Assembly: GCA_947475715.1 (NCBI GenBank)
Contig: CANJNY010000008.1
Location: forward strand, 1-64,000
Length of the DNA: 64,000 nucleotides
Reading direction: 5' to 3'
DNA from: Prolixibacteraceae bacterium
GTDB lineage: Bacteria; Bacteroidota; Bacteroidia; Bacteroidales; Prolixibacteraceae
Shown: positions 31,474 through 46,496 of the stretch, in pieces
How the letters are laid out: each line of letters begins with the position of its first letter
Position numbering within the stretch: position 1 is the stretch's first letter
The notes under the pieces: generated by a model
Told to the model about the DNA's origin: nothing
Databases searched by the model: none
What the model saw: the letters and a program-made list of their open reading frames with translations, nothing else
Position numbers and translations under genes: made by a program

Positions 31474-33894
31474 ATGCATCTGGAAGAAGACAAGCTATCA
31501 ACGTCGTTACCTATTGCCAAAGAGATCGTTATTGACGATTATTATACGGCATTTTTAAGCCGTCAGCTCAGCATTTTAGGGCGAAAAGAGGTACACGCAG
31601 GACGTGCACATTTCGGTATATTTGGCGACGGTAAAGAGCTTGCCCAGGTGGTCTTTGCCAAGTATTTCGAGAAGGGAGACTGGAGAGCGGGATATTACAG
31701 GGATCAGACCTTTATGATGGCGGCTGATTTACTGAGTCCTGAAGAGTTTTTTGCTCAGATTTATGGAGATACCGATCTGGAAAATAACCCTTCAACCGGT
31801 GGACGGAATTTCAACAACCATTACGCCACTAAAACTTTTACCAAAGGAGTTGGTTTGGATAATTTAATGGCCCAGAAAAACTCCTCTTCCGATGTTTCGT
31901 CAACGGGCGGACAGATGCCCCGACTCTTAGGATTGGCACAGGCCTCAAAACTGGTAAGAGAGAATCCTCAATTGGCGCCATATCTTAAAAACAAGATCAA
32001 TGGGAACGAGGTCGCCTTTGGTACAATTGGTGAATCAAGTACCTCAGAGGGGATGTTTTTCGAGACAATCAATGCAGCCTGTGTGCTTCAGGTTCCAATG
32101 GCTTTGACCATATATGATGATGGATTTGGTATAAGTGTTCCCGTAGAACTACAGACAGCGAAAGGGAGTATTTCGAAAGCGCTGAAAGGATTCGAAGCCA
32201 ACGGCAAGGATGCAGGATGCAAAATATTCGTTTGTCCGGGATACGATTATTCTGCCCTTACTCAAATTTATGAAAAGGGAATCCGAATATGCCGTGAGCA
32301 ACAAATACCGGTTATTTTTCATATTACTCACCTCACACAACCATCGGGTCATTCGACCTCAGGTTCACATGAACGGTATAAGAGTGATAAACGAATTGCA
32401 TGGGAAAAAGCTCATGACCCAATTGTAAAGTTCCGTGAATGGATAATTCAGCAGGATATAGCGGATGAATATACCTTGCTAACTATTGAAAACAGGGCCG
32501 TTGAACGTGCCCGGCTCGCAAGAGAACTTGCCTGGCAATCGTTTATTCATGATTTTGACGTGGAAAAAAGACAACTTCAGGAATTAATAACTTCGATCGG
32601 ATTTGATAGTAACCCCTCTCTTTCGAAGATATCCCAGGAATTGGAGATGGTTCTGACAGCTTCGTTTCCAACCCGAAAAAAATTGCTAGCCCTTGCAAAA
32701 ATGCAGCTTCGCTCAATGCATGGAATTACAGAGCTTCAGAAAAATAAACGGAATCTAGCAACCTGGATTTCAAAAATCGAGAAGAAAGGTTACGAAAAGT
32801 ACAACACACATATATTTAATGATTTAGACTGTTTTAAATCAAGTATCGAAATAAAACCTGTCTATTCCGTTGATTCAATTTCGGTTCCCGCACATGAAGT
32901 GTTGAATCAAAATTTTGATACCTTGTTTGCTAAATATCCGCTCTTGTTAACCTTTGGTGAGGATACTGGTCGCCTTGGTGATGTAAATCAGGGGATGAAA
33001 GGAATGCAGGAAAAATATGGCATTCACAGGGTTTTTGACACCGGAATCAGGGAGGCCACAATTATAGGACAGGGAATAGGTTTGGCAGTAAGAGGATTTA
33101 GACCCATTGCAGAGATTCAGTATCTCGACTATCTGCTCTATGCCTTGCCGACGATTTCTGACGATCTTTCAACACTTTATTACCGAACCAGCGGACAACA
33201 GATCGCTCCGCTTATCATTCGTACCAGGGGTCATCAATTGCAGGGAATGTGGCATTCCGGATCACCCCTGGGAATGCTTATTGGATCCATTGGTGGAGTT
33301 AATATCTGTGTTCCAAGGAACATGACTCAGGCCGCCGCATTTTACAATACGCTGATGAAGTCCCACAATCCCGCGCTGGTAATCGAACCACTTAAAGGGT
33401 ATTATATCCGTGAATTGCTTCCTGAAAACCTGGGAGAATTCACACTTCCACTGGGAATTCCGGAAATTCTGGAAGAAGGAACCGACATCACAATCGTTAC
33501 TTACGGTTGGAATGTCACAATTGCACATAGTGCGGTTAATAGATTAAAAGCATTAAACATATCTGCTGAATTAATTGATGTACAAACACTTATACCTTTC
33601 GATATTCAGCAGATCATTAGTCGGTCGGTTCAAAAAACAAAGAAGATTATTTTTATAGATGAGGATGTACCCGGTGGAGCAACAGGGTATATGATGCAAA
33701 AAGTTCTTGAAGAACAGAAGGCATTCAAATATCTCGAGGCGCCTCCTGCAACACTGACTGCAAAAGTCCACAGAGGAGCCTATGGTACGGATGGCGAGTA
33801 CTTTTCGAAACCAAATACCGAAAGCGTAATTGAAGCCATTTATGACATCATGCACGAATTTAATCCGGCTAAATATCCGGGGCTTTATGATTGA
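31474..33894 (+). CDS. Branched-chain 2-oxoacid dehydrogenase E1, fused alpha and beta subunits
   Basis: An 806-residue thiamin diphosphate enzyme. The alpha part (about 20-420) has 'SRQLSILGRKEVHAG', 'YRDQTFMMAADL' and 'GESSTSEGMFFETINAACVLQVPMALTIYDDGFGIS' (ThDP-binding stretch, with Glu-Ser for the usual Gly-Asp-Gly and Asp-Asp for Asn-Asn). The beta part (about 475-806) has 'LLTFGEDTGRLGDVNQGMKG', 'FDTGIREATIIGQGIGLAVRGFRPIAEIQYLDYL' and 'VTYG...DVQTLIPFD'. This fused form is common in Bacteroidetes. A branched-chain substrate is inferred mainly from context, since leucine catabolism genes follow after 13 bases. The E2 and E3 subunits are not in the window as a set. Confidence 0.82.
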   Translation: MHLEEDKLSTSLPIAKEIVIDDYYTAFLSRQLSILGRKEVHAGRAHFGIFGDGKELAQVVFAKYFEKGDWRAGYYRDQTFMMAADLLSPEEFFAQIYGDTDLENNPSTGGRNFNNHYATKTFTKGVGLDNLMAQKNSSSDVSSTGGQMPRLLGLAQASKLVRENPQLAPYLKNKINGNEVAFGTIGESSTSEGMFFETINAACVLQVPMALTIYDDGFGISVPVELQTAKGSISKALKGFEANGKDAGCKIFVCPGYDYSALTQIYEKGIRICREQQIPVIFHITHLTQPSGHSTSGSHERYKSDKRIAWEKAHDPIVKFREWIIQQDIADEYTLLTIENRAVERARLARELAWQSFIHDFDVEKRQLQELITSIGFDSNPSLSKISQELEMVLTASFPTRKKLLALAKMQLRSMHGITELQKNKRNLATWISKIEKKGYEKYNTHIFNDLDCFKSSIEIKPVYSVDSISVPAHEVLNQNFDTLFAKYPLLLTFGEDTGRLGDVNQGMKGMQEKYGIHRVFDTGIREATIIGQGIGLAVRGFRPIAEIQYLDYLLYALPTISDDLSTLYYRTSGQQIAPLIIRTRGHQLQGMWHSGSPLGMLIGSIGGVNICVPRNMTQAAAFYNTLMKSHNPALVIEPLKGYYIRELLPENLGEFTLPLGIPEILEEGTDITIVTYGWNVTIAHSAVNRLKALNISAELIDVQTLIPFDIQQIISRSVQKTKKIIFIDEDVPGGATGYMMQKVLEEQKAFKYLEAPPATLTAKVHRGAYGTDGEYFSKPNTESVIEAIYDIMHEFNPAKYPGLYD

Positions 33895-33907
33895 TTAATA
33901 TCTCAAA

Positions 33908-35476
33908 GTGAAACAGATCCATTCAAATATAAATCGATCCGACGATCAGTTTAACCAAAAGGTTGAATCATTTGCTGAACTGATGAATGTTTACCATGGC
34001 CGGATGAATAGTATAATGCGGCGTGAAAAAGATTTATCGGTTATCAGACACCTTTCGAGAGGCAAACTGGATGCCAGACACAGAATTGAGCTGTTAATTG
34101 ATGAACAAACGCCCTTTTTGGAATTATCACCATTAGCTGCTTTCGGACAATATGACAATCAGTTTCCATCGGCTGGGATAATTACCGGAATTGGTAAAAT
34201 CCAGGGCAAAACATGTATGATTATTGCCAATGATGCAACGGTAAAGGGTGGAACCTATATTAGCGAAACGGTAAAAAAACATTTGCGCGGACAGGAGATC
34301 GCACTTCAAAATCACCTTCCATGTGTATATCTGGTCGATTCAGGTGGGATCTTCTTACCCGAACAAGCCAGAATCTTCCCTGATCACGATGGATTTGGGC
34401 GTATATTCTACAATCAGTCCCTAATGTCGGCAGCAGGTATACCCCAAATTTCGATTGTAATGGGGTCGTGCACTGCCGGCGGCGCATACGTGCCGGCAAT
34501 GAGTGATGAAACCATTATTGTTAAAAATCAGGGGACAATTTTTATCGGTGGTCCGCCTTTGGTTAAGGCTGCAACGGGCGAAGAGGTAACTGCAGAGGAG
34601 CTCGGTGGTGCCTTCGTTCATACCGGAATTTCCGGCGTAGCTGACCATCTTGCTGAAAACGAAATAGATGCTATACGAATCTGCAGAAATATCTTTGAAT
34701 TAATTCCACAGAACGACCCCCAGCAATTTGAAAAGCATCCCATCCGGGAGCCTGCTTTTGATGCGAAAGAATTGTACGGCTTGGCACCCATTGATCTGCG
34801 AAAACAGGTTGACGTTTATGAAATTATAGCCAGAATCGTTGACGGCAGTAATTTTGAAGAGTTTAAACGTGATTATGGAACAACACTAATTACCGGATAT
34901 TCCAGAATTTTAGGGTTTCCTGTTGGTATCATTGCCAATAATGGATTTCTAACTTCCGAATCATCCTTAAAAGGGGCCCATTTTATTGAGATCTGTAATT
35001 TCAGGAAAATCCCTCTACTCTTTCTTCAAAATATTTCCGGATTTATTGTGGGAAAAAAATACGAACACGAAGGAATAGCCCGCAACGGGGCAAAACTTAT
35101 TCATGCAGTTGCAACTGCTGTGGTACCAAAAATAACGGTAATTATTGGTGGTTCTTTTGGTGCCGGAAATTATGCAATGTCAGGAAGGGCTTATAATCCC
35201 AATTTCCTGTTTATGTGGCCCAATGCCAAAATCGGTGTAATGGGTGGACAACAGGCACAGCAAGTACTCAATTCGATAAAGGGGAACAGTGCAGATCAAA
35301 ATTCAGATCTGATTACCAGTTTTGAACAGGAGAGTTCAGCATATTACAGTTCATCAAGACTTTGGGATGACGGAATTATTGATCCGGCAGATACCCGATC
35401 AGTCGTTGGTCTGGCGATCTCAATCGCTTCAAATAAAAAGACAGGGGCACCTAAAACCGGAATATACAGAATGTAA
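33908..35476 (+). CDS. liuB: Methylcrotonyl-CoA carboxylase, carboxyltransferase (beta) subunit
   Basis: A 522-residue carboxyltransferase of the acyl-CoA carboxylase family. It transfers CO2 from carboxybiotin to 3-methylcrotonyl-CoA, giving 3-methylglutaconyl-CoA. The signatures are '[19 protein letters not shown]', '[24 protein letters not shown]', '[15 protein letters not shown]', '[19 protein letters not shown]' and '[17 protein letters not shown]'. The size matches MCC-beta. Neighbouring liuC and the biotin subunit decide for MCC over propionyl-CoA carboxylase. Start is GTG at 33908; no ATG fits. One base separates it from the next gene. Confidence 0.87.
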
Positions 35477-35477
35477 A

Positions 35478-36260
35478 ATGGAAGATTACCTAACCATAAA
35501 AACACAAATCAAAGGAGAGGTCATAACACTCTGGCTATCAAGGCCGGAGGTCCATAATGCCTTGAATGATCTGATGATTCGTGAAATATCATCCTTCTTC
35601 ACTGAGATTGAAGAAAATAACAAGGTAAGAATTGTAATAATCCGTGGAATGGGTAAATCATTTTGTTCAGGTGCCGACCTTGCCTGGATGAAAAGCTCCT
35701 TTACACTGAATGAAGCAGAAAATCTAAAGGAGAGCCATCAGTTATCCAATATGTTTAACCTGATCTTTAAAAGTAATAAAGTAATAATTGGCGCAATTCA
35801 CGGAAACGTTTTTGGGGGAGGTTTAGGATTAGTTGCTGCTTGCGACCTCGCATATTGTGTGACAAACGCTAAATTTTCACTTAGCGAAACGCGTATTGGG
35901 ATGGCCGCAGCCTCAATTACACCTTATCTGCTGCAAAAAATAAACCCTTCGAATCTGAAAGAACTGATATTTACAGCTAAAATCTTTGATGGAAATGAAG
36001 CAGTAAAGTATCAATTAATAAATCAGTCATTTATTGATCAAGAAGTTATGGATATTTATCTGAATTCGATTATTGATCAGATTATCCGCAATGGAAAGCA
36101 GGCAATCGTTATATCCAAGAAGTTGATTAATCAGCTTACGGAAATTGCCGTAACTGAAAAGATAAAACAGATTCCTCAATTATTAGCGCAGATCAGGGTA
36201 TCGCCAGAGGCACAGGAGGGATTTTCAGCATTTCTTGAAAAACGAAAACCAAAATGGTAA
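35478..36260 (+). CDS. liuC: Methylglutaconyl-CoA hydratase (enoyl-CoA hydratase family)
   Basis: A 260-residue crotonase-fold enzyme. 'LSRPEVHNALND', 'IRGMGKSFCSGADLAWMK' (oxyanion-hole region) and 'VFGGGLGLVAACDLAYC' followed by 'FSLSETRIGMAAASITPYLL' (catalytic Glu) are present. 'CSGADLAWMK' is the typical methylglutaconyl-CoA hydratase form. It converts 3-methylglutaconyl-CoA to HMG-CoA. The ATG at 35478 is chosen over a longer reading frame opening inside the preceding gene. Its place between the two MCC subunits is as in liu operons. Confidence 0.87.
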   Translation: MEDYLTIKTQIKGEVITLWLSRPEVHNALNDLMIREISSFFTEIEENNKVRIVIIRGMGKSFCSGADLAWMKSSFTLNEAENLKESHQLSNMFNLIFKSNKVIIGAIHGNVFGGGLGLVAACDLAYCVTNAKFSLSETRIGMAAASITPYLLQKINPSNLKELIFTAKIFDGNEAVKYQLINQSFIDQEVMDIYLNSIIDQIIRNGKQAIVISKKLINQLTEIAVTEKIKQIPQLLAQIRVSPEAQEGFSAFLEKRKPKW

Positions 36261-36315
36261 TTCTTACAAAAAAATACTTAATTCCAACTTTAAAATATTA
36301 TAAAACAGTAATATA

Positions 36316-38313
36316 ATGGAATTATTGAATAAAATATTAATTGCGAACAGGGGTGAGATAGCCTTACGAATAATCCGTTCGGCAAAAAAATTATCCATTA
36401 AAACAGTGGTAATTTATGCTGAATCCGAAAAGGAGGCAGATTATGTTTTTTTGGCAGATGAAGCTGTTAGTCTTGGCGAGGGGGATCTGGCATCTACTTT
36501 TTTGAATATCGAAAAGATTATTCAAATAGCAATTTCAACAAATTCTCAGGCAATTCATCCCGGTTACGGATTTCTTTCCGAAAGTACCGCTTTTGCAAAA
36601 GCATGCGAAGAGCATCAAATCATATTTATAGGCCCCCGTTCGGAGGTGTTGGAGTTAATGGGAAGTAAACCTGCGGCTAAGCTGCTTGCCGAAAGTCTCG
36701 GAATTCCTGTAGCTTTCAGTCATAAAATTGACTCTGATGGAACCCTGCCAGATGAAAATCAAATCAGTTTTCCGGTGTTGATCAAGGCTTCCTACGGCGG
36801 CGGCGGCAAAGGAATGGAACTTGTTCAGAACTATCAGGAGTTGAAGGATAAAGTTGATAAATCATCACGGATTGCATTGAATTACTTTGGAAATGGCGAG
36901 CTGTTTATTGAACAATTCATTCAAATGGCACGTCATGTCGAAGTTCAGATATTGGGTGATAATTTACACAATATCATACATTTATACGAGCGTGAATGTT
37001 CTATTCAAAGGAATCATCAAAAAATTATTGAAGAAGCTCCTGCAATTTTCTTATCCCCGGACCTACGTCAACGGATATTGAGTGCAGCTCTTACATTAGG
37101 TAAAGCTGTAGCCTATTCGGGGGCCGGTACCGTCGAATTTTTAGTCGATGAATCGGGAAATTTTTTCTTTATGGAGATGAATCCGCGAATTCAGGTTGAA
37201 CATGCTGTCACAGAACAGATAACAGGAATCGATATCGTTAGTGAGCAATTCAGGATCGCATCAGGATTTCAACTCTCTGTTTCGCAGGATGAGGTAAAAT
37301 TAACAGGACATTCCATTGAATTAAGAGTTTATGCCGAAAATCCGACGACCAATTTCACCCCTTCCACTACCCCACTGTTATGGGTTAATATACCGGAAAA
37401 TCCGTTTTTAAGAGTTGAATCTGATATTAATTCAAATCAGGCAACAAAAAATCAGTTTGATCCGTTATTGATAAAATTGATTGGTACAGCAACCGATCGT
37501 AAAACGGCAATTGTCCTGTTAAGGGAGCAGATTAAAAACCTGAACATTATAGGTCCTGAAACAAATACAAAATACCTGGAAACGATACTCGATCATTCGG
37601 AATATCTGGAAAATAAAATTTCAGTTGAATTCTGCAAAGAAAATCACAAAAATCTAATTGACAGTTATTCAACTAAATCCGATGTGCCCGGATTAGGTTA
37701 TTTAATCGCTTACTCGATCTTGATAGGCTACCTTAAACAAATTAAGGCTGAATCTGCTGACCCCTGGAAATACCTCGGATACTGGCGACTATCCTCTTTA
37801 GCAATCCCGCTGTCAATTGATGGAGAAATTTATTCAGTTTATTTGAACTTAAGAGAAAATCCAGATCCGGCGTTTAACCTGAACGGAATTAAAACTGAGT
37901 TCAGAATAGAGAATCAAACGATAAATAGTGCAGAAATTGTAATAAATAAACAAGCAAGGAGAATTTCAGCTATATTTGAAAATGAATATTTGCTAAGATT
38001 AAGCCTTGAAAATATTCAACATCTGATATTATTTCCCGGTATATTAAAAAAATATCCGGAAATAATTGGAAGATCGGAGGATGAATCAAACCTTGATAAA
38101 GGTGAAATAAAATCTCCATTACATGGAAAAATACTTGAAATCAATGTAAAAGAGAATCAAATCGTAAAAAAAGGGGATCTTTTGATGGTGATTGAAGCGA
38201 TGAAATCTGAGAATCGCATCCTCTCACCCAGAGATGCCAGAGTGAAAAAAATTGCTGTTATTGTGGGATCTCAGGTGACAGATCGGATGCCACTTATATT
38301 TCTGGAGGAATAA
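36316..38313 (+). CDS. liuD: Methylcrotonyl-CoA carboxylase, biotin carboxylase/carrier (alpha) subunit
   Basis: A 665-residue biotin enzyme. Residues 1-450 are biotin carboxylase: 'KILIANRGEIALRIIRSAK', 'HPGYGFLSES', 'KASYGGGGKGMELV' (glycine-rich ATP loop), 'VEVQILGD' and 'EMNPRIQVEHAVTE'. Residues about 595-665 are the biotinyl domain with Lys630 in Glu-Ala-Met-Lys-Ser-Glu-Asn. The usual Met after the biotinylated Lys is Ser here. The intervening BT region is divergent. It forms the MCC holoenzyme with the liuB product. The next gene starts one base after the stop. Confidence 0.87.
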   Translation: MELLNKILIANRGEIALRIIRSAKKLSIKTVVIYAESEKEADYVFLADEAVSLGEGDLASTFLNIEKIIQIAISTNSQAIHPGYGFLSESTAFAKACEEHQIIFIGPRSEVLELMGSKPAAKLLAESLGIPVAFSHKIDSDGTLPDENQISFPVLIKASYGGGGKGMELVQNYQELKDKVDKSSRIALNYFGNGELFIEQFIQMARHVEVQILGDNLHNIIHLYERECSIQRNHQKIIEEAPAIFLSPDLRQRILSAALTLGKAVAYSGAGTVEFLVDESGNFFFMEMNPRIQVEHAVTEQITGIDIVSEQFRIASGFQLSVSQDEVKLTGHSIELRVYAENPTTNFTPSTTPLLWVNIPENPFLRVESDINSNQATKNQFDPLLIKLIGTATDRKTAIVLLREQIKNLNIIGPETNTKYLETILDHSEYLENKISVEFCKENHKNLIDSYSTKSDVPGLGYLIAYSILIGYLKQIKAESADPWKYLGYWRLSSLAIPLSIDGEIYSVYLNLRENPDPAFNLNGIKTEFRIENQTINSAEIVINKQARRISAIFENEYLLRLSLENIQHLILFPGILKKYPEIIGRSEDESNLDKGEIKSPLHGKILEINVKENQIVKKGDLLMVIEAMKSENRILSPRDARVKKIAVIVGSQVTDRMPLIFLEE

Positions 38314-38314
38314 A

Positions 38315-39457
38315 ATGAATGAATTATTAGACAGCCGGTATATTGAATACCGGCAAAAAATCAGAGAATTTGCCGAGAGTTTTGTTAAGCCTGTAGCAGT
38401 TATTCAGGATGAAAAAGAAGAATTCCCGGTTGATTTGGCCTTAAAAATGGGCAAAGCAGGATTATTCGGAATTACAATACCTGCCAAGTATGGAGGACAA
38501 GGTTTAGACTACATCTCCTATATAATTGCTGTTGAAGAACTTGCACGCGTAGATAGTTCACCTGCCGCTACAATTGCAGCACACAATTCACTGGGGTTAA
38601 ATCCGATTTATACTTTCGGAACTGAAGAACAGAAGCTAAAATACCTTCCTGGATTATGTACAGGCGAAAAATTATGGGCATTTGGCCTGACTGAAGATAA
38701 TGCCGGTTCTGATGCAAAAGGGGTCGAAACGGAAGCGACTCTTGAAAATGGGGAATGGGTGATAAACGGAACAAAAATGTTTATTACAAACAGTTGTTCT
38801 TCCATTGCTAAAGGAATTACTGTTCAGGCTATTACCGGCTATAACGGGGATAAAAAGGAGTTATCGGCAATCCTGCTCGACAGGTCGGTACCCGGATACT
38901 CAACCTCCGCTATAAAGGGGAAGTTGATGTGGCGTGCCGTTGATAACGGCAAACTCAATTTTGAAAATTGCAGGGTTCCCGAATCCAATATTCTGGGGAA
39001 ACGGGGAGAAGGGATGAAAATAATGCTTTCGACTCTTGATGGCGGAAGATTGTCGATCGCGGCAATCGGCCTTGGACTGGCACAAGGTGCTTATGAAATG
39101 GCAGTGGCCTATGCTCAGAAGCGCAGACAGTTCGGAAAAGCGTTGGTTGACTTTCAAACCACCTCTTTTAAACTCGCAGAAATGGCGATGAAGATTGAAC
39201 TGGCACGAAACACGCTCTATCATACCTGCAGGCTTAAAGAGGCAGGATTACCATACGGAAAGCAGGCAGCAATGTCTAAACTATATTGCTCTGATATTGC
39301 ACGTGAAATCGCAGGTGAATCACTTCAGATTCATGGCGGGTTCGGATTTCTGCGCGAAAACCATATTGAGCGGTTTTACAGGGATCAAAGACTTCTTTCA
39401 ATTGGCGAAGGGACATCTGAAATATTAAAGATGGTCATAGCCCGATACGTTTTATAG
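38315..39457 (+). CDS. liuA: Acyl-CoA dehydrogenase, probably isovaleryl-CoA dehydrogenase
   Basis: A 380-residue FAD-dependent acyl-CoA dehydrogenase that desaturates acyl-CoA at C2-C3 and passes electrons to ETF. The motifs are 'GLFGITIPAKYGGQGLDY', 'LWAFGLTEDNAGSDAKGVET', 'GTKMFITN', 'GGRLSIAAIGLGLAQGAYEMAVAYA', 'RRQFGKALVDFQ', 'LQIHGGFGFLRENHIERFYRDQR', and 'IGEGTSEILKMVIARYVL' (C-terminal Glu is the catalytic base in short- and medium-chain enzymes). In true isovaleryl-CoA dehydrogenase the base lies elsewhere, so the substrate call is based on operon context. It is followed after 18 bases by fni. Confidence 0.83.
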   Translation: MNELLDSRYIEYRQKIREFAESFVKPVAVIQDEKEEFPVDLALKMGKAGLFGITIPAKYGGQGLDYISYIIAVEELARVDSSPAATIAAHNSLGLNPIYTFGTEEQKLKYLPGLCTGEKLWAFGLTEDNAGSDAKGVETEATLENGEWVINGTKMFITNSCSSIAKGITVQAITGYNGDKKELSAILLDRSVPGYSTSAIKGKLMWRAVDNGKLNFENCRVPESNILGKRGEGMKIMLSTLDGGRLSIAAIGLGLAQGAYEMAVAYAQKRRQFGKALVDFQTTSFKLAEMAMKIELARNTLYHTCRLKEAGLPYGKQAAMSKLYCSDIAREIAGESLQIHGGFGFLRENHIERFYRDQRLLSIGEGTSEILKMVIARYVL

Positions 39458-39475
39458 CACAATTTCGAAAAAATC

Positions 39476-40537
39476 ATGGCACTAGCTGATATTCCGGATA
39501 TCCCCAAAAATGATACTATTGGAGACGATTCACAACGAAAATCAGATCATATAAATCTGACAATAAAATCGCAAACATTGGCAAATGAAGCAGATAATCG
39601 TTTCTACTATGAGCCAATGATTTCAGGATTTCCATTGAAACCTTTAGAGGCCACCCCATTTGCGGGAAAATTAATGAAGGTTCCAATCTGGGTTTCCAGT
39701 ATGACCGGAGGCCATCTCGCTTCAGGTAAAATAAACCGTCATCTCGCCATGGCTTGCAAGGAATTCGGTATGGGTATGGGACTTGGTTCGTGCCGGATGC
39801 TTCTTCGCGAAGAGACCTATTTTAACGATTTCGATGTCCGTTCGATCATCGGTGACGAAAATCCACTCTTTGCCAACCTTGGAATTGCTCAGATTGAAGA
39901 GATGGTTGAACGAAATCAAACTGACCAACTTCGCCGCTTAATCGATCGCTTAAAAGCTGACGGACTGATCATTCATGTCAATCCGCTTCAGGAGTGGGTT
40001 CAACCGGAAGGAAACATAATTAAACATTCGCCTGTTGAAACCATCGAAAGATTATTGGAATTAATTGATTTTAAATTAATTGTAAAAGAAGTTGGACAAG
40101 GTTTCGGACCCAAAAGTATCCACCGTCTGTTGCAGCTCCCTCTTGCAGCGATTGAATTTGGGGCTTTTGGAGGAACCAATTTTGCGAAAGTTGAAATATT
40201 ACGCAGCTCGACCTTAAAACAAGAACTACACCAACCATTTGTTAATGTAGGTGTTACCGCCACTGAGATGGTTGATTTAGTGAACGATATGGTCTTGAGC
40301 GGGAATAAATTTGTTTGTAATCAGCTGATTATATCCGGAGGTATACATAGTTATCTCGACGGTTATTACCTGACCCAGAAATCGGTACTGCCAGCTATTT
40401 ATGCACAGGCATCTTCATTTTTGAAATATAGCCAGGGCGATTATGCTGAACTACAGCAATTTGTTACTGCACAAATTGAAGGGTATAAAATGGCAAGGAA
40501 CTTCCTCACGTTGAAGGAACCCAAGAGATTCCAATAA
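39476..40537 (+). CDS. fni: Type 2 isopentenyl-diphosphate isomerase
   Basis: A 353-residue FMN-dependent enzyme that interconverts IPP and DMAPP. 'QRKSDHINLTIKSQTL' at the start, 'VPIWVSSMTGGHLASGKINRHLA', 'GMGLGSCRMLL', 'ADGLIIHVNPLQEWVQPEG', 'VKEVGQGFGP' and 'AIEFGAFGGTNFAKVE' match the Fni/IDI-2 family. It follows the acyl-CoA dehydrogenase gene after only 18 bases, physically linking leucine degradation to isoprenoid synthesis. HMG-CoA reductase follows after 96 bases. Confidence 0.9.
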   Translation: MALADIPDIPKNDTIGDDSQRKSDHINLTIKSQTLANEADNRFYYEPMISGFPLKPLEATPFAGKLMKVPIWVSSMTGGHLASGKINRHLAMACKEFGMGMGLGSCRMLLREETYFNDFDVRSIIGDENPLFANLGIAQIEEMVERNQTDQLRRLIDRLKADGLIIHVNPLQEWVQPEGNIIKHSPVETIERLLELIDFKLIVKEVGQGFGPKSIHRLLQLPLAAIEFGAFGGTNFAKVEILRSSTLKQELHQPFVNVGVTATEMVDLVNDMVLSGNKFVCNQLIISGGIHSYLDGYYLTQKSVLPAIYAQASSFLKYSQGDYAELQQFVTAQIEGYKMARNFLTLKEPKRFQ

Positions 40538-40633
40538 CATCTTGAATAAGCTATTCGTAACCAGTTTCAGGAATCAAAGTCCCCATTTTAGCTGATATTT
40601 AAATATCTCAAAGAAAATTATTTACCTTTAGGC

Positions 40634-41941
40634 ATGACCATTATCTCAGGTTTCTCGAAATTCACACATAAGCAGCGATTAGCTTTTCTTGTCGGTCATT
40701 CTGATTTAAATGATTCACAGGCAATGTGTTTTAATGAATTCAATGCTACGGAAGAGAATCAGCAGCGCCTGTTAAGTGAAATGATTGAAAACTATATTGG
40801 AAATTTTCCAATACCAATGGGTGTGGTAACCAATATGATGATTAATAATGAGTCATATATCGTCCCTTTTGTGACCGAAGAGAGTTCAGTGGTAGCTGCA
40901 GCTTCGAAAGCAGCCAAATATTGGGCAGAAAGGGGTGGCTTTCATGCCAGAGTTGAAGCAATGACCAAAAAAGGGCAGGTACACTTTACATGGAATGGAA
41001 ATTCGGCGGTGATACAACAATTATTTCCGGAAATCAAAATTAAATTCCTTGAAGCAACCAGCGAAATAACAGGTAAAATGAGACAAAGGGGAGGTGGAAT
41101 ATCGGATATTCAACTTCTTGATAAAACAAAGGAACTAAAAGATTATTATCAGATTGACGTCTCTTTTGAAACTTCAGATGCCATGGGTGCCAATTTTATA
41201 AATACGACCCTCGAGAAAATTGCATCCGTTTTACTAAATCTGCCCCAACTAAATACCGATGAATTTAGGATTGAAATAATCATGTCAATCCTCTCAAACT
41301 ATACACCCGATTGTAAAGTAACTTGTTGGGTAGAATGTCCTGTTGAAAAATTATCAGGATGGAATAAAACATTGCCATATAATACTTTTGCTTCGAGATT
41401 TAAACAATCAGTTGATATAGCCAATCTTGATATTTCGAGGGCGGTGACCCATAACAAAGGCATTTTTAATGGCATCGATGCTGTATTGGTGGCAACCGGT
41501 AACGACTATAGGGCCACAGCAGCTGGAGCTCATGCCTATGCTTCCAGGAAAGGTACTTACAAAGGATTAACCATGGTAACGCTCACTGAGGGTATGTTCA
41601 GGTATGAACTTGAAATTCCATTGGCAATCGGAACGGTAGGAGGAATTACACAGGTCCATCCGATCGTAAAAAATGTGATGGCTGTTTTAAAATTTCCGGA
41701 TGCCAAAAAGCTGATGATGATTGCAGCAGCTTCGGGTCTTGCCAATAATTTCTCAGCTATTGCGTCATTAATTACAACCGGCATCCAGACCGGTCATATG
41801 AAAATGCACCTTTCCAACCTATTAAATCAGCTTAATGCTACTGAAACAGAACGAAGCCTTGCGAATGAATTCTTCTCAGATAAAACAGTAAGTAATTCGG
41901 CTGTAAATGATTTCATTATTTCAATTAGGGCGGAATTATAA
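40634..41941 (+). CDS. mvaA: Hydroxymethylglutaryl-CoA reductase (class II-like)
   Basis: A 435-residue enzyme that reduces HMG-CoA to mevalonate. 'VPFVTEESSVVAAASKAAKYW' holds the catalytic Glu, 'RAVTHNKGIFNGIDA' the Lys, 'DAMGANFINT' the cofactor loop, 'GTVGGIT' the turn, and 'GIQTGHMKMHL' the catalytic His. Bacterial class II enzymes have this order. The 96-base gap upstream holds a near-promoter box TACCTTTA (about 40624), so it may have its own start as well as readthrough. Direction in the cell is not fixed by sequence; the downstream kinases argue for mevalonate synthesis. Confidence 0.92.
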   Translation: MTIISGFSKFTHKQRLAFLVGHSDLNDSQAMCFNEFNATEENQQRLLSEMIENYIGNFPIPMGVVTNMMINNESYIVPFVTEESSVVAAASKAAKYWAERGGFHARVEAMTKKGQVHFTWNGNSAVIQQLFPEIKIKFLEATSEITGKMRQRGGGISDIQLLDKTKELKDYYQIDVSFETSDAMGANFINTTLEKIASVLLNLPQLNTDEFRIEIIMSILSNYTPDCKVTCWVECPVEKLSGWNKTLPYNTFASRFKQSVDIANLDISRAVTHNKGIFNGIDAVLVATGNDYRATAAGAHAYASRKGTYKGLTMVTLTEGMFRYELEIPLAIGTVGGITQVHPIVKNVMAVLKFPDAKKLMMIAAASGLANNFSAIASLITTGIQTGHMKMHLSNLLNQLNATETERSLANEFFSDKTVSNSAVNDFIISIRAEL

Positions 41942-41952
41942 ACATTGCTGAG

Positions 41953-42867
41953 ATGAAAACCTTTAAATCGCAAACTAAATTAATGTTAACCGGTGAATAC
42001 CTTGTACTTAAGGGTGCAATTTCACTTGCCTTACCATTAAAGTTCAGCCAGCAACTAACGGTTCAGCAATATCAGGGAATCCCTTCAGTGAAGTGGACCT
42101 CTCTGATTGATAACGATTTATGGTTTCATGCCACTATTCTACTCCCCGACTTTCATATTTCAGAAACAAATAATCCGGGTTTATCCGAAACTCTTGTTAA
42201 GATTCTTCAAACTGCCAAAATACTCAATCCTAGATTCTTAGAGCATGGTACAGAGCATCAGGTAACTTCGTTAATGGATTTTAATCCGGCATGGGGAATC
42301 GGTTCAAGCAGTTCACTGATCTCAAACATCGCCTGGTGGGCAGAATGTGATCCTTTCAAACTTAATAATTTAATTTTTAATGGTTCAGGATATGATATTG
42401 CATGTGCCAGATCTTCATCGCCGATCCGATACCAGATATCTGAAAACCAACCACTTTATCAGAAGTCCGATTTTCATCCCGACTTCTACCGACAGATTTA
42501 TTTCATTTACCTTAACCGCAAACAAAACTCGAAGGAAAGTATTGGCAAATCAGATCTCTCGAATGTGAAGCCCGGGGATATTGATTCAATCTCTGAACTC
42601 ACCCTTGCACTTGAAAAGGCAAATAGCCTTTCAATATTTAAGGAATTAATGAATCAACATGAGGAATTAATTTCAACTATTCTTCAAATAGAACCTGTTA
42701 AGTCTTTGTATTTTAATAATTTTAAAGGATCTATCAAATCATTGGGCGCATGGGGTGGTGATTTTATAATGGCTGCCTCTTCCGAATCAGAGCAGTATAT
42801 ACGAAACTATTTTACAGAGAAAAATTTAACTACTATTTTCAGATATGATGAAGTTATTCCATTTTGA
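41953..42867 (+). CDS. GYDIA-family GHMP kinase, candidate phosphomevalonate kinase
   Basis: A 304-residue member of the GHMP kinase superfamily. 'WGIGSSSSLISNIAWW' (about 116-131) is the ATP-binding loop and 'GSGYDIACARSSSPIRYQ' (about 142-159) is the family's name motif. A second GHMP glycine-rich segment 'SIKSLGAWGGDFIMAAS' is near the C-terminus. The family is specific to Bacteroidetes and lies among mevalonate genes; its substrate has not been established to my knowledge. As both mevalonate kinase and the decarboxylase are recognisable nearby and no classical phosphomevalonate kinase is, it is the best candidate for that missing step. Confidence 0.82.
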   Translation: MKTFKSQTKLMLTGEYLVLKGAISLALPLKFSQQLTVQQYQGIPSVKWTSLIDNDLWFHATILLPDFHISETNNPGLSETLVKILQTAKILNPRFLEHGTEHQVTSLMDFNPAWGIGSSSSLISNIAWWAECDPFKLNNLIFNGSGYDIACARSSSPIRYQISENQPLYQKSDFHPDFYRQIYFIYLNRKQNSKESIGKSDLSNVKPGDIDSISELTLALEKANSLSIFKELMNQHEELISTILQIEPVKSLYFNNFKGSIKSLGAWGGDFIMAASSESEQYIRNYFTEKNLTTIFRYDEVIPF

Positions 42868-42901
42868 TAGCTTCTGAAAACAGATAATACAAAACACTAA
42901 A

Positions 42902-43969
42902 ATGAGCGAAGAGTCAATAAATATCGGCTGGCGTGCCCCTTCGAATATCGCGTTGGTTAAATATTGGGGAAAAAGGGATAATCAGCTCCCTGAGAATGGA
43001 TCATTAAGCATAACCCTTGAAAAATCAACCACAACCACATTTCTATCTTTTTGTAAAAAGGGGGTGGAGAATCGGGATATTTCACTGAAGTACTATTTTC
43101 ACAATGAGCAGGTTCTCCCATTCGAGAAAAAAACAGCACTGCTTCTAAATAAATTAGTCTCTGAAATGTCGTTTCTTAGCGATTATGAACTTATTTTTCA
43201 TAGTGAAAACAACTTTCCCCATTCAACCGGCATCGCCTCTTCTGCATCATCCATGGGTGCACTCGCCCTTTGTCTGGTCAGTATGGAGGAGATTATCACA
43301 AAAATTAAACTAAGTAAGGATGATTTCTTCAGAAGAGCTTCTTATATTGCAAGGCTTGGCTCAGGAAGCGCCTCGCGATCTGTTTACGGAGGTCTTGTGT
43401 CATGGGGCAAGAGTGAGTCCATTTTAGAATCCTCGGACCAATATGCCACCCCTTTCCCCCTGCATGAGGGTAGTCGCCTTAAAACAGTTATGGATATAAT
43501 CCTGATCGTTAGTGCACAGGAAAAATCAGTCTCAAGTTCCAGGGGGCATGCACTGATGAACGTTCACCCTTACCGCGAAGCCAGAAAAACACAGGCGAAC
43601 AATAACCTTACTGAAATTACGCAAGCCATTCGCAATGATGATTATCAGTCAATTGCATCGATTGCTGAAAATGAAGCGCTCTCGCTTCATGCATTGCTAA
43701 TGACCTCCGGATCTGATGGCCTGTTATTAAAGCCCAATACCTTAAATATTATAGAAGAAATTAAGCGATTTAGAGAGCGATCCGGACTTGATCTGTTTTT
43801 TACCATTGATGCAGGGCCTAATGTTCATCTGATTTATTACCTGGATCAACGGGATCAGGTGCTTGAATTTGTTAATCAAACACTGAGTCAGTATTGCGAA
43901 GAGGGAAAGTGGATCGATGATCAAATTGGTAATGGCCCCCAACTATTAACTACACCGGTGACAAACTAA
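42902..43969 (+). CDS. mvaD: Diphosphomevalonate decarboxylase
   Basis: A 355-residue GHMP-family enzyme that phosphorylates and decarboxylates mevalonate diphosphate to IPP. The motifs 'WRAPSNIALVKYWGKRD', 'PHSTGIASSASSMGALA' and 'ARLGSGSASRSVYGGLVSWG' are diagnostic, the last holding the Ser/Arg that bind substrate. The catalytic Asp is in 'FTIDAGPNVH'. It sits between the GYDIA kinase and mevalonate kinase; one base separates it from the latter. Confidence 0.92.
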   Translation: MSEESINIGWRAPSNIALVKYWGKRDNQLPENGSLSITLEKSTTTTFLSFCKKGVENRDISLKYYFHNEQVLPFEKKTALLLNKLVSEMSFLSDYELIFHSENNFPHSTGIASSASSMGALALCLVSMEEIITKIKLSKDDFFRRASYIARLGSGSASRSVYGGLVSWGKSESILESSDQYATPFPLHEGSRLKTVMDIILIVSAQEKSVSSSRGHALMNVHPYREARKTQANNNLTEITQAIRNDDYQSIASIAENEALSLHALLMTSGSDGLLLKPNTLNIIEEIKRFRERSGLDLFFTIDAGPNVHLIYYLDQRDQVLEFVNQTLSQYCEEGKWIDDQIGNGPQLLTTPVTN

Positions 43970-43970
43970 G

Positions 43971-44876
43971 ATGGACTACCCGGCCAAAATAATTCTGTTT
44001 GGTGAGTATGGAATAATTTTAAATTCCAAGGCTTTAGCAATCCCCTTCCCGCGATTTTCGGGAAGGCTAAAAGTTACTCAAAGTTCAGATCTAAAACTTT
44101 CAAAAAAAGCTTTAGAATCTAACGCAGCCTTATCTGAATTAAATAATTACTTTAAAAATTATAACGAAAAGTTTAAATTTTTGGATCTTATCCGGTTTAA
44201 TGAGGATGTAAATCAGGGATTGTACTTTGACTCCTCAATTCCATCCGGATCGGGTTTAGGCAGTTCAGGGGCACTTACAGCGGCGCTTTATGACAAATAT
44301 TGTACCGTTAATCATTTGAATGATTTACAGGTAATCAAAAATAAACTGGCTGATATTGAATCGTGCTTTCATGGTATAAGTTCAGGAACCGATCCATTTA
44401 TATCCTGGATACAGAAACCGGTACTGCTTGAGAACGACAGTTCCCCTAATGCGTCGATTGACCTCTCCCCTTTTTTAAAAAACTACACCTTATTTCTAAT
44501 CAATTCGCATGCTATCGGAAATACAGGTGCCCTGGTAAATCTATTCATGAAAAATTATCAGCAACCCGATTATAAAGAAAAGATTGATCATCACTATCTC
44601 CCCATAATAAATCAAACTATTGAAGCTGTTTTAGCAGCTGATTTTAGTACTTTTGAATCCTCAATAAGTAAGTATTCGCAGTTTCAGCTTAACTATCTCG
44701 GACAAATGATCTCACCCGATATGGTCAACTTTTTTAAGCATGGAAATGAGAGCGGTGATTTTTACCTAAAAATCTGTGGTTCAGGAGGTGGTGGATTTAT
44801 TCTGGGTATTTCAAGCCAACCGGAGAAAGCAGAAGCTTATTTTAATTTAAACCATCTTGATTATTTGATTGTTTAA
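43971..44876 (+). CDS. mvk: Mevalonate kinase
   Basis: A 301-residue GHMP kinase with 'AKIILFGEYGIIL', the ATP loop 'SGSGLGSSGALTAALYD', 'IESCFHGISSGTDPFISW' (catalytic Asp in the Ser-Gly-Thr-Asp-Pro segment), and 'KICGSGGGGFILGI' near the C-terminus. This set fits mevalonate kinase. It starts one base after the mvaD stop and is the last gene of the mevalonate group. Confidence 0.88.
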   Translation: MDYPAKIILFGEYGIILNSKALAIPFPRFSGRLKVTQSSDLKLSKKALESNAALSELNNYFKNYNEKFKFLDLIRFNEDVNQGLYFDSSIPSGSGLGSSGALTAALYDKYCTVNHLNDLQVIKNKLADIESCFHGISSGTDPFISWIQKPVLLENDSSPNASIDLSPFLKNYTLFLINSHAIGNTGALVNLFMKNYQQPDYKEKIDHHYLPIINQTIEAVLAADFSTFESSISKYSQFQLNYLGQMISPDMVNFFKHGNESGDFYLKICGSGGGGFILGISSQPEKAEAYFNLNHLDYLIV

Positions 44877-44970: not shown

Positions 44971-45825
44971 ATGAGTACAATTACCCGAAGACTTCCTGAT
45001 TGGATGAAAACACCGCTCCCTTCCGGGAAAGAATATATTGCCTTAAAAAACCTGGCAGCAACTCAGCAGTTAAACACAATCTGTGTAAGCGGTAATTGTC
45101 CCAACAAAGCAGAATGTTGGGGAGCTTCGACGGCCAGTTTTATGATATTAGGTGAAAAATGCACAAGGAACTGTCGATTTTGTGATGTAAAGAATATGAT
45201 TCCTGATCCTGTCGATATGGAAGAGCCGCTCAGATTGGCAGAAACGATTAATGCACTTAAGATTAAGCATTGCGTTATCACCTCAGTAACGCGCGACGAT
45301 CTTGATGACGGAGGTGCTGCACTTTGGGCGTTAACGATTAAAACCGTAAAGAAATTGAATCCCGGCATCACGATGGAAACGTTAATTCCCGATTTTTATG
45401 CCAATAAAGATTTGATCCAACAGGTTATTGATGCCAGACCCGAAGTGATTTCGCACAATATGGAGACGGTTCGCAGGCTTACCCCAAAAGTTAGAGATAT
45501 CGCACGTTATGACCGAAGTCTTAAAGTTATTGGAATTATTGCGGCCTCGGGAATTGTCCCAAAATCAGGAATTATGGTTGGATTAGGCGAAACTGAAGAG
45601 GAAGTCTTCCAAACGATGGATGATCTGCTTGAGGTTGGCTGCAAAGTATTAACAATCGGTCAATACCTTCAACCCAGCTCCCATCATCTGAAAATTGAGG
45701 AGTTTATAAAACCCGAAATCTTTATCAAATACCGCGAAGCTGCTCTTGAAAAAGGTTTCAGCATGGTTGAGAGCAGCCCGCTGGTCCGTTCATCATACCG
45801 TGCCGAAAGACATGTGCACGCATAA
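44971..45825 (+). CDS. lipA: Lipoyl synthase
   Basis: A 284-residue radical SAM enzyme that inserts two sulfurs into octanoyl groups on lipoyl domains. The auxiliary cluster ligands are Cys38, Cys43 and Cys49, with the Arg-Ser-Ser-Tyr motif near the C-terminus. The radical SAM cluster ligands are Cys64, Cys68 and Cys71 (C-X3-C-X2-C). The product serves 2-oxoacid dehydrogenases such as those encoded at both ends of this window. The gap to mvk (94 bases) has imperfect short repeats but no clear promoter. Confidence 0.95.
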   Translation: MSTITRRLPDWMKTPLPSGKEYIALKNLAATQQLNTICVSGNCPNKAECWGASTASFMILGEKCTRNCRFCDVKNMIPDPVDMEEPLRLAETINALKIKHCVITSVTRDDLDDGGAALWALTIKTVKKLNPGITMETLIPDFYANKDLIQQVIDARPEVISHNMETVRRLTPKVRDIARYDRSLKVIGIIAASGIVPKSGIMVGLGETEEEVFQTMDDLLEVGCKVLTIGQYLQPSSHHLKIEEFIKPEIFIKYREAALEKGFSMVESSPLVRSSYRAERHVHA

Positions 45826-45836
45826 GTATCTTTAAA

Positions 45837-46496
45837 GTGAAAAAAAAAATAACTTACAGTAAAGTTCTCGGAGTCAAAAATCTGACCGAATCAACCTATA
45901 TTATTAGTCTCGAAAGGGGTGATTTCAATTTTAAGGCCGGGCAATACCTGGTGCTCAAAGTTACGGGAGAAAATAAGGCGCGCGAATATTCGATTTACAG
46001 TCCGGAAGATTCTCCTGCCATTGATCTGCTGATTAAAGAGGTAGATAATGGCGAGGTTTCCAAAGAATTAAAATATATGCCCATTGGGACCAATGTGGAA
46101 CTTACCGGTCCTTTTGGTTTTTTTGTACTCCGGGAAGATAAAAATGGCTTAAATAATCATTATACCTTTATCGCTACCGGTACCGGTATATCTCCATTCC
46201 ACAGCATTATTTTATCGAATCCGGATCTTAACTATGAGATAATCCATGGTGTTCGAAATGGATATGAAGCTTATGATTCTTCAGACTATCAAGAGGATAA
46301 TTATCATCTTTGTACTTCCCGTGAACAAAGTGGAAATTTTCATGGTAGGGTAACCCAGTATCTTACAGAGAAAGGGATCAGAAAAGATTCAATATATTAT
46401 ATATGCGGAAATTCGGCCATGGTCAATGAAGTGACCGATTTACTTGAGCAGAACGGGATCAAACCTGAAAATATTCGCACAGAGATTTTCTTTTGA
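45837..46496 (+). CDS. FAD-binding ferredoxin/flavodoxin-NADP reductase-like protein
   Basis: A 219-residue flavoprotein reductase. The FAD half has 'GDFNFKAGQYLVLKV' and 'AREYSIYSPED' (Arg-X-Tyr-Ser motif). The NAD(P) half has 'FIATGTGISPFHSIIL' and ends with 'YYICGNSAMVNEVTDLLEQNG'. The fold matches ferredoxin-NADP+ reductases; the partner is unknown. GTG at 45837 is the start, 11 bases after the lipA stop, so it is probably co-transcribed with lipA. Confidence 0.85.
   Translation: MKKKITYSKVLGVKNLTESTYIISLERGDFNFKAGQYLVLKVTGENKAREYSIYSPEDSPAIDLLIKEVDNGEVSKELKYMPIGTNVELTGPFGFFVLREDKNGLNNHYTFIATGTGISPFHSIILSNPDLNYEIIHGVRNGYEAYDSSDYQEDNYHLCTSREQSGNFHGRVTQYLTEKGIRKDSIYYICGNSAMVNEVTDLLEQNGIKPENIRTEIFF

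Follow-up and report, generated by a model that had tools for sequence, protein, structure and literature searches.

The window analysed here, a 64,000-nucleotide stretch of contig CANJNY010000008.1 from a Prolixibacteraceae bacterium, carries between positions 31474 and 44876 ten genes in which leucine degradation appears to be joined to the mevalonate pathway. We consider it likely, as a genomic prediction, that this set is a dedicated operon for making isoprenoids from leucine. The set itself is real: genes for a 2-oxoacid dehydrogenase E1, the carboxyltransferase (beta) subunit of 3-methylcrotonyl-CoA carboxylase (MCC), a crotonase-family hydratase, MCC-alpha, an acyl-CoA dehydrogenase, type 2 isopentenyl-diphosphate isomerase (IDI2), 3-hydroxy-3-methylglutaryl-CoA (HMG-CoA) reductase (HMGR), a GHMP kinase of the GYDIA family, diphosphomevalonate decarboxylase (MVD) and mevalonate kinase (MVK) lie tightly packed on the forward strand, with the largest gap, of 96 bases, between IDI2 and HMGR. 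The original prediction, made from the letters of the window, had listed these ten genes on one strand, and each is where it had been placed. The leucine-to-isoprenoid pathway that it had raised as a possibility is supported, as a prediction from genomes, by the absence of HMG-CoA synthase and HMG-CoA lyase and by the conserved linkage of the leucine-degradation (liu) and mevalonate genes.

In the proposed pathway, leucine would be transaminated and then oxidatively decarboxylated to isovaleryl-CoA, with the E1 gene adjoining the operon in the window's genus. The acyl-CoA dehydrogenase would convert isovaleryl-CoA to 3-methylcrotonyl-CoA, MCC would carboxylate this compound to 3-methylglutaconyl-CoA, and the crotonase-type hydratase would then produce HMG-CoA. 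HMGR would form mevalonate, from which MVK, then the GYDIA kinase in the role of phosphomevalonate kinase, and finally MVD and IDI2 would yield isopentenyl diphosphate (IPP) and dimethylallyl diphosphate. Because HMG-CoA synthase and lyase were not found, leucine breakdown would end in isoprenoids and the mevalonate pathway would start from leucine (or isovalerate). We infer both this direction and the flow of carbon from leucine.

To the sensitivity of our searches, HMG-CoA synthase is absent from the window genome, a 5.77-Mb, 98.94% complete assembly, and from all genomes of a family sample of 140 Prolixibacteraceae-like genomes in 23 genera, which includes Tangfeifania diversioriginum DSM 27063 as well as a Prolixibacteraceae bin, G099, whose MCC-beta and HMGR are identical to those of named locus L075. 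None of the 140 is matched by the PF01154 profile or by an alignment of six Bacteroidota synthases built from matches in genomes of the class Bacteroidia. Among 14 control genomes, PF01154 matches seven, six over the cut-off, including Lactococcus and four archaea; a match in Escherichia coli is probably due to a FabH-like protein. The Bacteroidota alignment matches 20 of 295 class genomes, 13 of them with at least 433 bits and the other seven with 24 at most, and the 13 strong matches are the same genomes by either search. An unfiltered synthase profile scores 711–745 on its six source synthases, which it matches by construction, and at best 9.7 bits in 1.2 Mb, about half, of the genome G384, which has no synthase match although its congener G202 has one. 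In G202, the gene immediately before HMG-CoA synthase (L135:395-1474) looks FabH-like, a name given by inspection of the first residues. The flanks of 80 named HMGR loci likewise contain no HMG-CoA synthase.

HMG-CoA lyase, which the original prediction had seen to be missing locally, is missing more widely: its model (NF004283) finds none in the 140 family genomes at an E-value of 1e-20 and nothing over the cut-off in the window genome, where the three weak matches are LeuA, a CimA-like synthase and a PycB/OadA-like protein. The same model reaches 389 bits with the lyase that neighbours the liu genes of a Bdellovibrionales locus (L115). Because no synthase was found, MCC and the hydratase are together the sole maker of HMG-CoA that we detect; the sole user detected is HMGR, of which the window genome has two copies. 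The presence of LeuA also suggests that this genome has the capacity for leucine synthesis.

The two halves of the operon also tend to occur together. HMGR of the window type occurs in 70 of the 140 family genomes (13 of 23 genera), and a close MCC-beta (61–100% identity, the next listed matches having 33–38%) occurs in 66. Both genes are present in 63 genomes, HMGR only in seven, MCC-beta only in three and neither in 67; these genomes are kin, and a Fisher value for this table is not a probability for independent samples. Even within a single genus (g3), four of eight genomes have both halves and four have neither. In 52 of the 63 double carriers the two genes share a contig, always with MCC-beta upstream of HMGR on the same strand and 3,971–6,881 bases between them, and in the other 11 they are split between contigs. 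Five of the seven HMGR-only genomes were examined at the locus (all except G118 and G120): liu genes run to the contig end in G008, G018 and G125, the contig begins inside HMGR in G011, and MCC-beta-like fragments lie beside a partial HMGR in G122.

Gene order is similarly constant. The series MCC-beta, hydratase, MCC-alpha, dehydrogenase, IDI2, HMGR, GYDIA kinase, MVD and MVK runs on one strand in 18 of 20 family contigs examined. L047 has the same order minus IDI2, with 10 bases between dehydrogenase and HMGR; L041, a short contig, lacks IDI2, has 2.8 kb between these genes and ends ahead of the GYDIA gene. In a set of 31 loci (here and for the motifs below, such sets count two genomes twice, as L042/L060 and L043/L075), the gaps on either side of IDI2 could be taken from 26: the gap from the dehydrogenase has a median of 23.5 bases and a maximum of 193, and that to HMGR a median of −6 and a maximum of 196. 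The arrangement thus extends through 13 family genera and is not unique to this contig, and its conservation in linkage and order leads us to reject a chance neighbourhood of liu and mevalonate genes. A single origin of the linkage is not claimed, as an HMGR tree groups 33 of 34 family or linked sequences with weak support (67) and leaves bin L098 outside. The cluster is also present in the cultured T. diversioriginum (L060), whose MCC-beta and HMGR are identical to those of G132, and the prediction is therefore open to testing.

Ten of the 80 named HMGR loci (L054-L057, L060, L074, L075, L098, L102 and L112) have genes for MCC, the hydratase or the dehydrogenase next to HMGR, with no family stated for bins L074 and L098, and 67 show no liu gene of the operon set in the flanks covered, some of which are short. 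In two Ancylomarina loci (L058 and L059) the dehydrogenase is the sole liu gene near HMGR. The Bdellovibrionales locus mentioned above (L115:8937-21217) has IDI2, HMGR, GYDIA kinase, MVD and MVK genes in this order and, about 2 kb further on and on the opposite strand, genes for HMG-CoA lyase, MCC-alpha, a hydratase and MCC-beta.

Domain models from Pfam and NCBIfam match all ten gene names at family level. The carboxyltransferase is the best-defined enzyme of the leucine half. Compared with PDB chains, it scores 625 bits with human MCC-beta, 607 with Pseudomonas MCC-beta and 421 with geranyl-CoA carboxylase; among chains named propionyl-CoA carboxylase, 9tps reaches 619 bits and the next 271, and the two best chains overall (667 and 649 bits) carry other or generic names. 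According to the part of the source available to us, MCC has a Phe (Phe191) at an active-site position occupied by Gly in geranyl-CoA carboxylase (PMC4673880). The window sequence DGFGR aligns to human DHFGR, whose Phe we count at chain position 191, so the aligned residue of the window protein is presumably the equivalent of this Phe191. A pattern containing the Phe is matched by 26 of 28 family or linked sequences, missing L038 and L224. The scores and the diagnostic Phe together support a place for the window protein in the MCC lineage. On both grounds we reject a geranyl-CoA carboxylase of acyclic terpene degradation, and on the scores a propionyl-CoA carboxylase. Other carboxyltransferases, at 34–37% identity, are encoded in the same genome.

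MCC-alpha has human MCC-alpha as its best PDB chain (449 bits). For the hydratase, the top NCBIfam models are PRK07468 and gamma-carboxygeranoyl-CoA hydratase, both under their cut-offs, the score noted for the hydratase being 224.8 against 350, and the two best solved relatives have generic names; 3-methylglutaconyl-CoA is the substrate that its context suggests. PDB matches of E1 mix branched-chain and pyruvate enzymes. The branched-chain E1 of the original prediction stands as an E1 whose substrate, judged by gene context, would be a branched-chain 2-oxoacid, with pyruvate as the alternative. Its gene was seen next to the operon in three settings only: the window's genus, two named loci (of which one is a contig from that same genus) and a single contig from a different genus.

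The mevalonate half contains HMGR, MVK and MVD of the classical pathway. Residues E83, K275, D291 and H388 of HMGR, which we take to be catalytic, are invariant across 15 sequences. The top NCBIfam model for this protein is of the 'degradative' type, with a score under its cut-off, and we reject mevalonate use as its main role because the HMG-CoA lyase that would complete such a route was not found. MVD matches solved decarboxylases, down to 4.5e-41, and has DAGPN and GSGSASR motifs; IDI2 has no Pfam match at an E-value of 0.001. The fold predicted for the GYDIA kinase from 31 aligned sequences (mean pLDDT, the predicted local distance difference test, of 94.1) matches mevalonate kinases 1vis and 1kkh first, phosphomevalonate kinase 3gon with a TM score of 0.70 (by query length) and galactokinases with 0.64–0.69. 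This GHMP fold is compatible with several substrates. Because the operon has a separate mevalonate kinase, the GYDIA kinase likely catalyses the phosphomevalonate step.

The second HMGR-like gene of the window genome (G000) is of class I type (C26:20973-22079, corresponding to L140:9333-10601; TIGR00533 337 bits, cut-off 441.8) and stands alone, adjoining genes for an alpha/beta hydrolase and a PCMD-domain protein. No relative of IDI2, GYDIA kinase, MVD or MVK lies close by in 20 class loci with a class I-type HMGR.

Several observations weigh against a dedicated leucine-to-isoprenoid operon. NCBIfam scores fall below the curated cut-offs for IDI2, HMGR, MVD, MVK and the hydratase, with the GYDIA kinase alone above, and the fine enzyme names thus lean on family membership and context. 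The usual biotin attachment motif is AMKM; the window MCC-alpha has EAMKS, and E[A/S]MK is found in 29 of 31 MCC-alpha sequences with a next residue that is S or T in 26, I in two and M in just one. The dehydrogenase is nearest to butyryl and short-chain enzymes (356 bits) and scores only 214–231 with chains named isovaleryl-CoA dehydrogenase. Canonical isovaleryl-CoA dehydrogenase is not known to have the catalytic Glu near the C terminus, and the Glu of the GEGTSE motif is kept in all 31 dehydrogenase sequences. The window enzyme, being neither closest to isovaleryl-CoA dehydrogenase nor devoid of the Glu, is not a canonical LiuA, and it is by context that it may possibly act on isovaleryl-CoA. 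This step of the original prediction is weaker than it was stated. The pairwise distances of MCC-beta and HMGR correlate strongly over 24 loci (r = 0.91, with none of 2000 permutations as high), which speaks for the operon; vertical inheritance alone could give this result, however, and it has no housekeeping control beside it. Carbon flow and expression are here predictions from genes, and the window genome assembly consists of 315 contigs.

The operon may also be dispensable. DXR, the enzyme by which alone we probed the methylerythritol phosphate (MEP) pathway and which did not feature in the original prediction, is encoded in the window genome and most of its relatives (130 of the 140 family genomes), including 64 of the 70 HMGR carriers. 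Since most carriers have DXR, the operon probably adds a leucine-fed route to IPP to that of the MEP pathway. The six carriers without a DXR match, namely G005 (88% complete), G028 (95%), G089 (82%), G090 (97%), G091 (92%) and G135 (66%), could depend on the operon or have gaps in their assemblies; G089, G090 and G091 belong to the window's genus and, together with G028, are candidates for relying on this route exclusively.

A survey of the class Bacteroidia also limits what the lack of synthase can tell. HMGR occurs in 80 of 295 class genomes, the window genome included, and 51 of the other 79 were taken as class II-type by score, with which the gene neighbours agree in the 18 examined. Only 13 of these 51 have HMG-CoA synthase, and 38 have no match. 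An MCC-like carboxylase (E-value 1e-100) is found in 47 of the 51 and in 25 of 29 HMGR-negative controls. We therefore reject the argument that a lack of synthase by itself proves feeding by leucine, as 38 of 51 genomes share this lack and MCC-like genes are equally common without HMGR. The case for the window rests instead on linkage, co-occurrence and the lack of lyase taken together. Moreover, three Bacteroidia genomes with class II-type HMGR that are 97–100% complete (G283, G333 and G411, of which G333 is a single contig) have no HMG-CoA synthase or MCC match, so some members of the class may have an HMG-CoA source of another kind.

In a tree of the 30 best MCC-like carboxylases, 28 fall in two other clades and those of G280 and G311 join the clade of the family. 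These two genomes (G311 at L217 and L218, G280 at L216 and L154; family f66) have MCC of the family's clade with the hydratase and dehydrogenase on a contig different from that of the mevalonate genes. One tentative extension, which we would not bet on, is that a leucine-only entry to the mevalonate pathway, which needs neither acetoacetyl-CoA nor HMG-CoA synthase, is regular in Bacteroidia. It would take fused form in Prolixibacteraceae-like genomes and rely on unlinked liu genes in many other genomes with HMGR and no synthase, and in a few DXR-negative carriers (for example, G089 and G091) it might be the sole source of IPP.

Two independent pathways might simply share an operon, each completed by an enzyme that we failed to recognize, a lyase for leucine degradation and a synthase for the mevalonate pathway. 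The three genomes with HMGR and neither synthase nor MCC match lend this idea some credit, because another source of HMG-CoA is possible there, as does the Bdellovibrionales locus, where mevalonate and liu genes lie near each other and a lyase is present. However, both enzymes would have to be unrecognizable in all 140 family genomes, and independent functions would not require the joint gain and loss of the two gene groups seen in the family (63/7/3/67). We regard this explanation as unlikely. We give similarly little credence to a variant in which the upper half is fed not by leucine but by isovalerate or 3-methylcrotonate (dimethylacrylate), taken up from outside or derived from prenyl breakdown. 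This variant would suit the conserved core of the family contigs examined, which consists of MCC, hydratase and dehydrogenase and seldom has E1 adjacent. It fits less well with the widely kept MCC-type Phe, which excludes geranyl-CoA in the portion of the source seen (PMC4673880), with E1 and lipA adjoining the operon in the window, and with LeuA encoded in the genome.

The enzymes could also be imagined to run in reverse, from HMG-CoA to isovaleryl-CoA, in the manner of the aib route by which myxobacteria form isovaleryl-CoA under leucine shortage (PMC9548883, in the sections available). In myxobacteria HMG-CoA synthase feeds this route, as a title cited in PMC9548883 indicates, and the aib genes form an operon of their own; the synthase was not found in the family, and we reject a reverse route of the myxobacterial type for this reason. 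The genes from HMG-CoA to IPP are, in addition, complete within the operon. Decarboxylation by MCC with formation of ATP is unfavourable, which also counts against reversal, and on balance we consider this direction highly improbable. Forward flow from leucine to isoprenoids remains our preferred interpretation.

The underlying metabolism has precedents. In the trypanosomatids Leishmania and Trypanosoma, leucine carbon is established as entering isoprenoids through isovaleryl-CoA, 3-methylcrotonyl-CoA and HMG-CoA, followed by HMGR, as in our proposal; these organisms are eukaryotes that also have a branch from acetyl-CoA through HMG-CoA synthase and a functional isovaleryl-CoA dehydrogenase, and the text seen in part mentions no operon (PMC5993337). 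In Halobacterium salinarum, a prokaryote too but an archaeon, leucine carbon is reported to reach mevalonate with the involvement of isovaleryl-CoA dehydrogenase, again with no operon mentioned in the portion available (Yamauchi 2010). Its relative Haloferax matches HMG-CoA synthase, and not DXR, in our control searches. Among bacteria, leucine degradation meets the mevalonate pathway at HMG-CoA in myxobacteria, for which leucine-fed isoprenoids are reported; there, however, HMG-CoA synthase is involved, both directions occur and the excerpts describe no fused liu–mevalonate operon (PMC7321100, PMC9548883).

Standard bacterial liu clusters encode MCC, a hydratase, a dehydrogenase and HMG-CoA lyase. 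The window operon shares both MCC subunits, the hydratase and an acyl-CoA dehydrogenase with them, but has mevalonate genes in place of the lyase, which was not found in the family. Conversely, Bacteroidota mevalonate sets (IDI2, HMGR, GYDIA kinase, MVD and MVK, or parts of this series) correspond to the lower half, and most of the named HMGR loci counted above have no liu gene nearby. A literature search by title and abstract opening, covering few subscription journals, returned no bacterial liu–mevalonate operon lacking HMG-CoA synthase, and the main text of a survey from 2026 on isoprenoid pathways in bacteria, as far as accessible, contains neither 'leucine' nor 'bacteroid' (PMC13001223). 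Leucine-to-isoprenoid metabolism is thus already known, and the new part would be a bacterial operon for it that is free of both synthase and lyase.

By the usual teaching, IPP comes either from acetyl-CoA, through the mevalonate pathway, or from pyruvate and glyceraldehyde phosphate, through the MEP pathway. If our reading is correct, the breakdown of an amino acid would be the built-in first half of a mevalonate pathway and would constitute a third dedicated entry to IPP in bacteria. It would also show a way for mevalonate genes to be retained in genomes that lack HMG-CoA synthase and explain why HMG-CoA lyase is dispensable, and the operon genes could provide an alternative feed in terpenoid engineering.

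Table 1. Genes of the proposed operon and of the region downstream, with window coordinates (aa, amino acids)
Gene product	Position	Strand	Basis
2-oxoacid dehydrogenase E1, alpha-beta fusion, 806 aa	31474-33894	+	Pfam E1_dh, Transket_pyr, Transketolase_C; proposed branched-chain
MCC-beta (3-methylcrotonyl-CoA carboxylase, carboxyltransferase)	33908-35476	+	PDB-chain scores, MCC-type Phe
Crotonase-family hydratase, proposed methylglutaconyl-CoA hydratase (LiuC-like)	about 35478-36260	+	NCBIfam, below cut-off
MCC-alpha, biotin carboxylase and biotin carrier domain	36316-38313	+	Biotin_carb_N/C, CPSase_L_D2, Biotin_lipoyl
Acyl-CoA dehydrogenase, proposed isovaleryl-CoA oxidation	38315-39457	+	Acyl-CoA_dh N/M/1
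IDI2, type 2 isopentenyl-diphosphate delta-isomerase	39476-40537	+	TIGR02151 184.6 bits, under cut-off 281.3
HMGR, HMG-CoA reductase, class II type	40634-41941	+	PF00368 289 bits; TIGR00532 252.5, cut-off 259.95
GYDIA-family GHMP kinase, proposed phosphomevalonate kinase	41953-42867	+	NF040656 343.7 bits, above cut-off 225
MVD, diphosphomevalonate decarboxylase	42902-43969	+	TIGR01240 163 bits, cut-off 171.35
MVK, mevalonate kinase	43971-44876	+	TIGR00549 91.1 bits, cut-off 163.05; GSGLGSSGAL motif
LipA, lipoyl synthase, possible operon member	44971-45825	+	TIGR00510 334.6 bits, cut-off 310.25
FAD/NAD oxidoreductase	45837-46496	+	FAD_binding_6, NAD_binding_1

The queries used in searches differ slightly from two of these genes: that for MCC-beta (33923-35473) is five residues short, and that for the hydratase (35463-36257) starts five codons ahead of the first ATG. 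Terminator-like patterns are not enriched (16, versus 15.1 in shuffled sequences with a standard deviation of 4.1). The upstream neighbour of the operon is a lumazine synthase gene. Downstream, the operon may extend beyond MVK into lipA and the FAD/NAD oxidoreductase gene. Lipoate is a cofactor of 2-oxoacid dehydrogenase complexes, and a lipA relative also follows MVK in L034-L038, L047, L053, L054, L055, L057, L098, L112 and L225, some of which belong to other genera.

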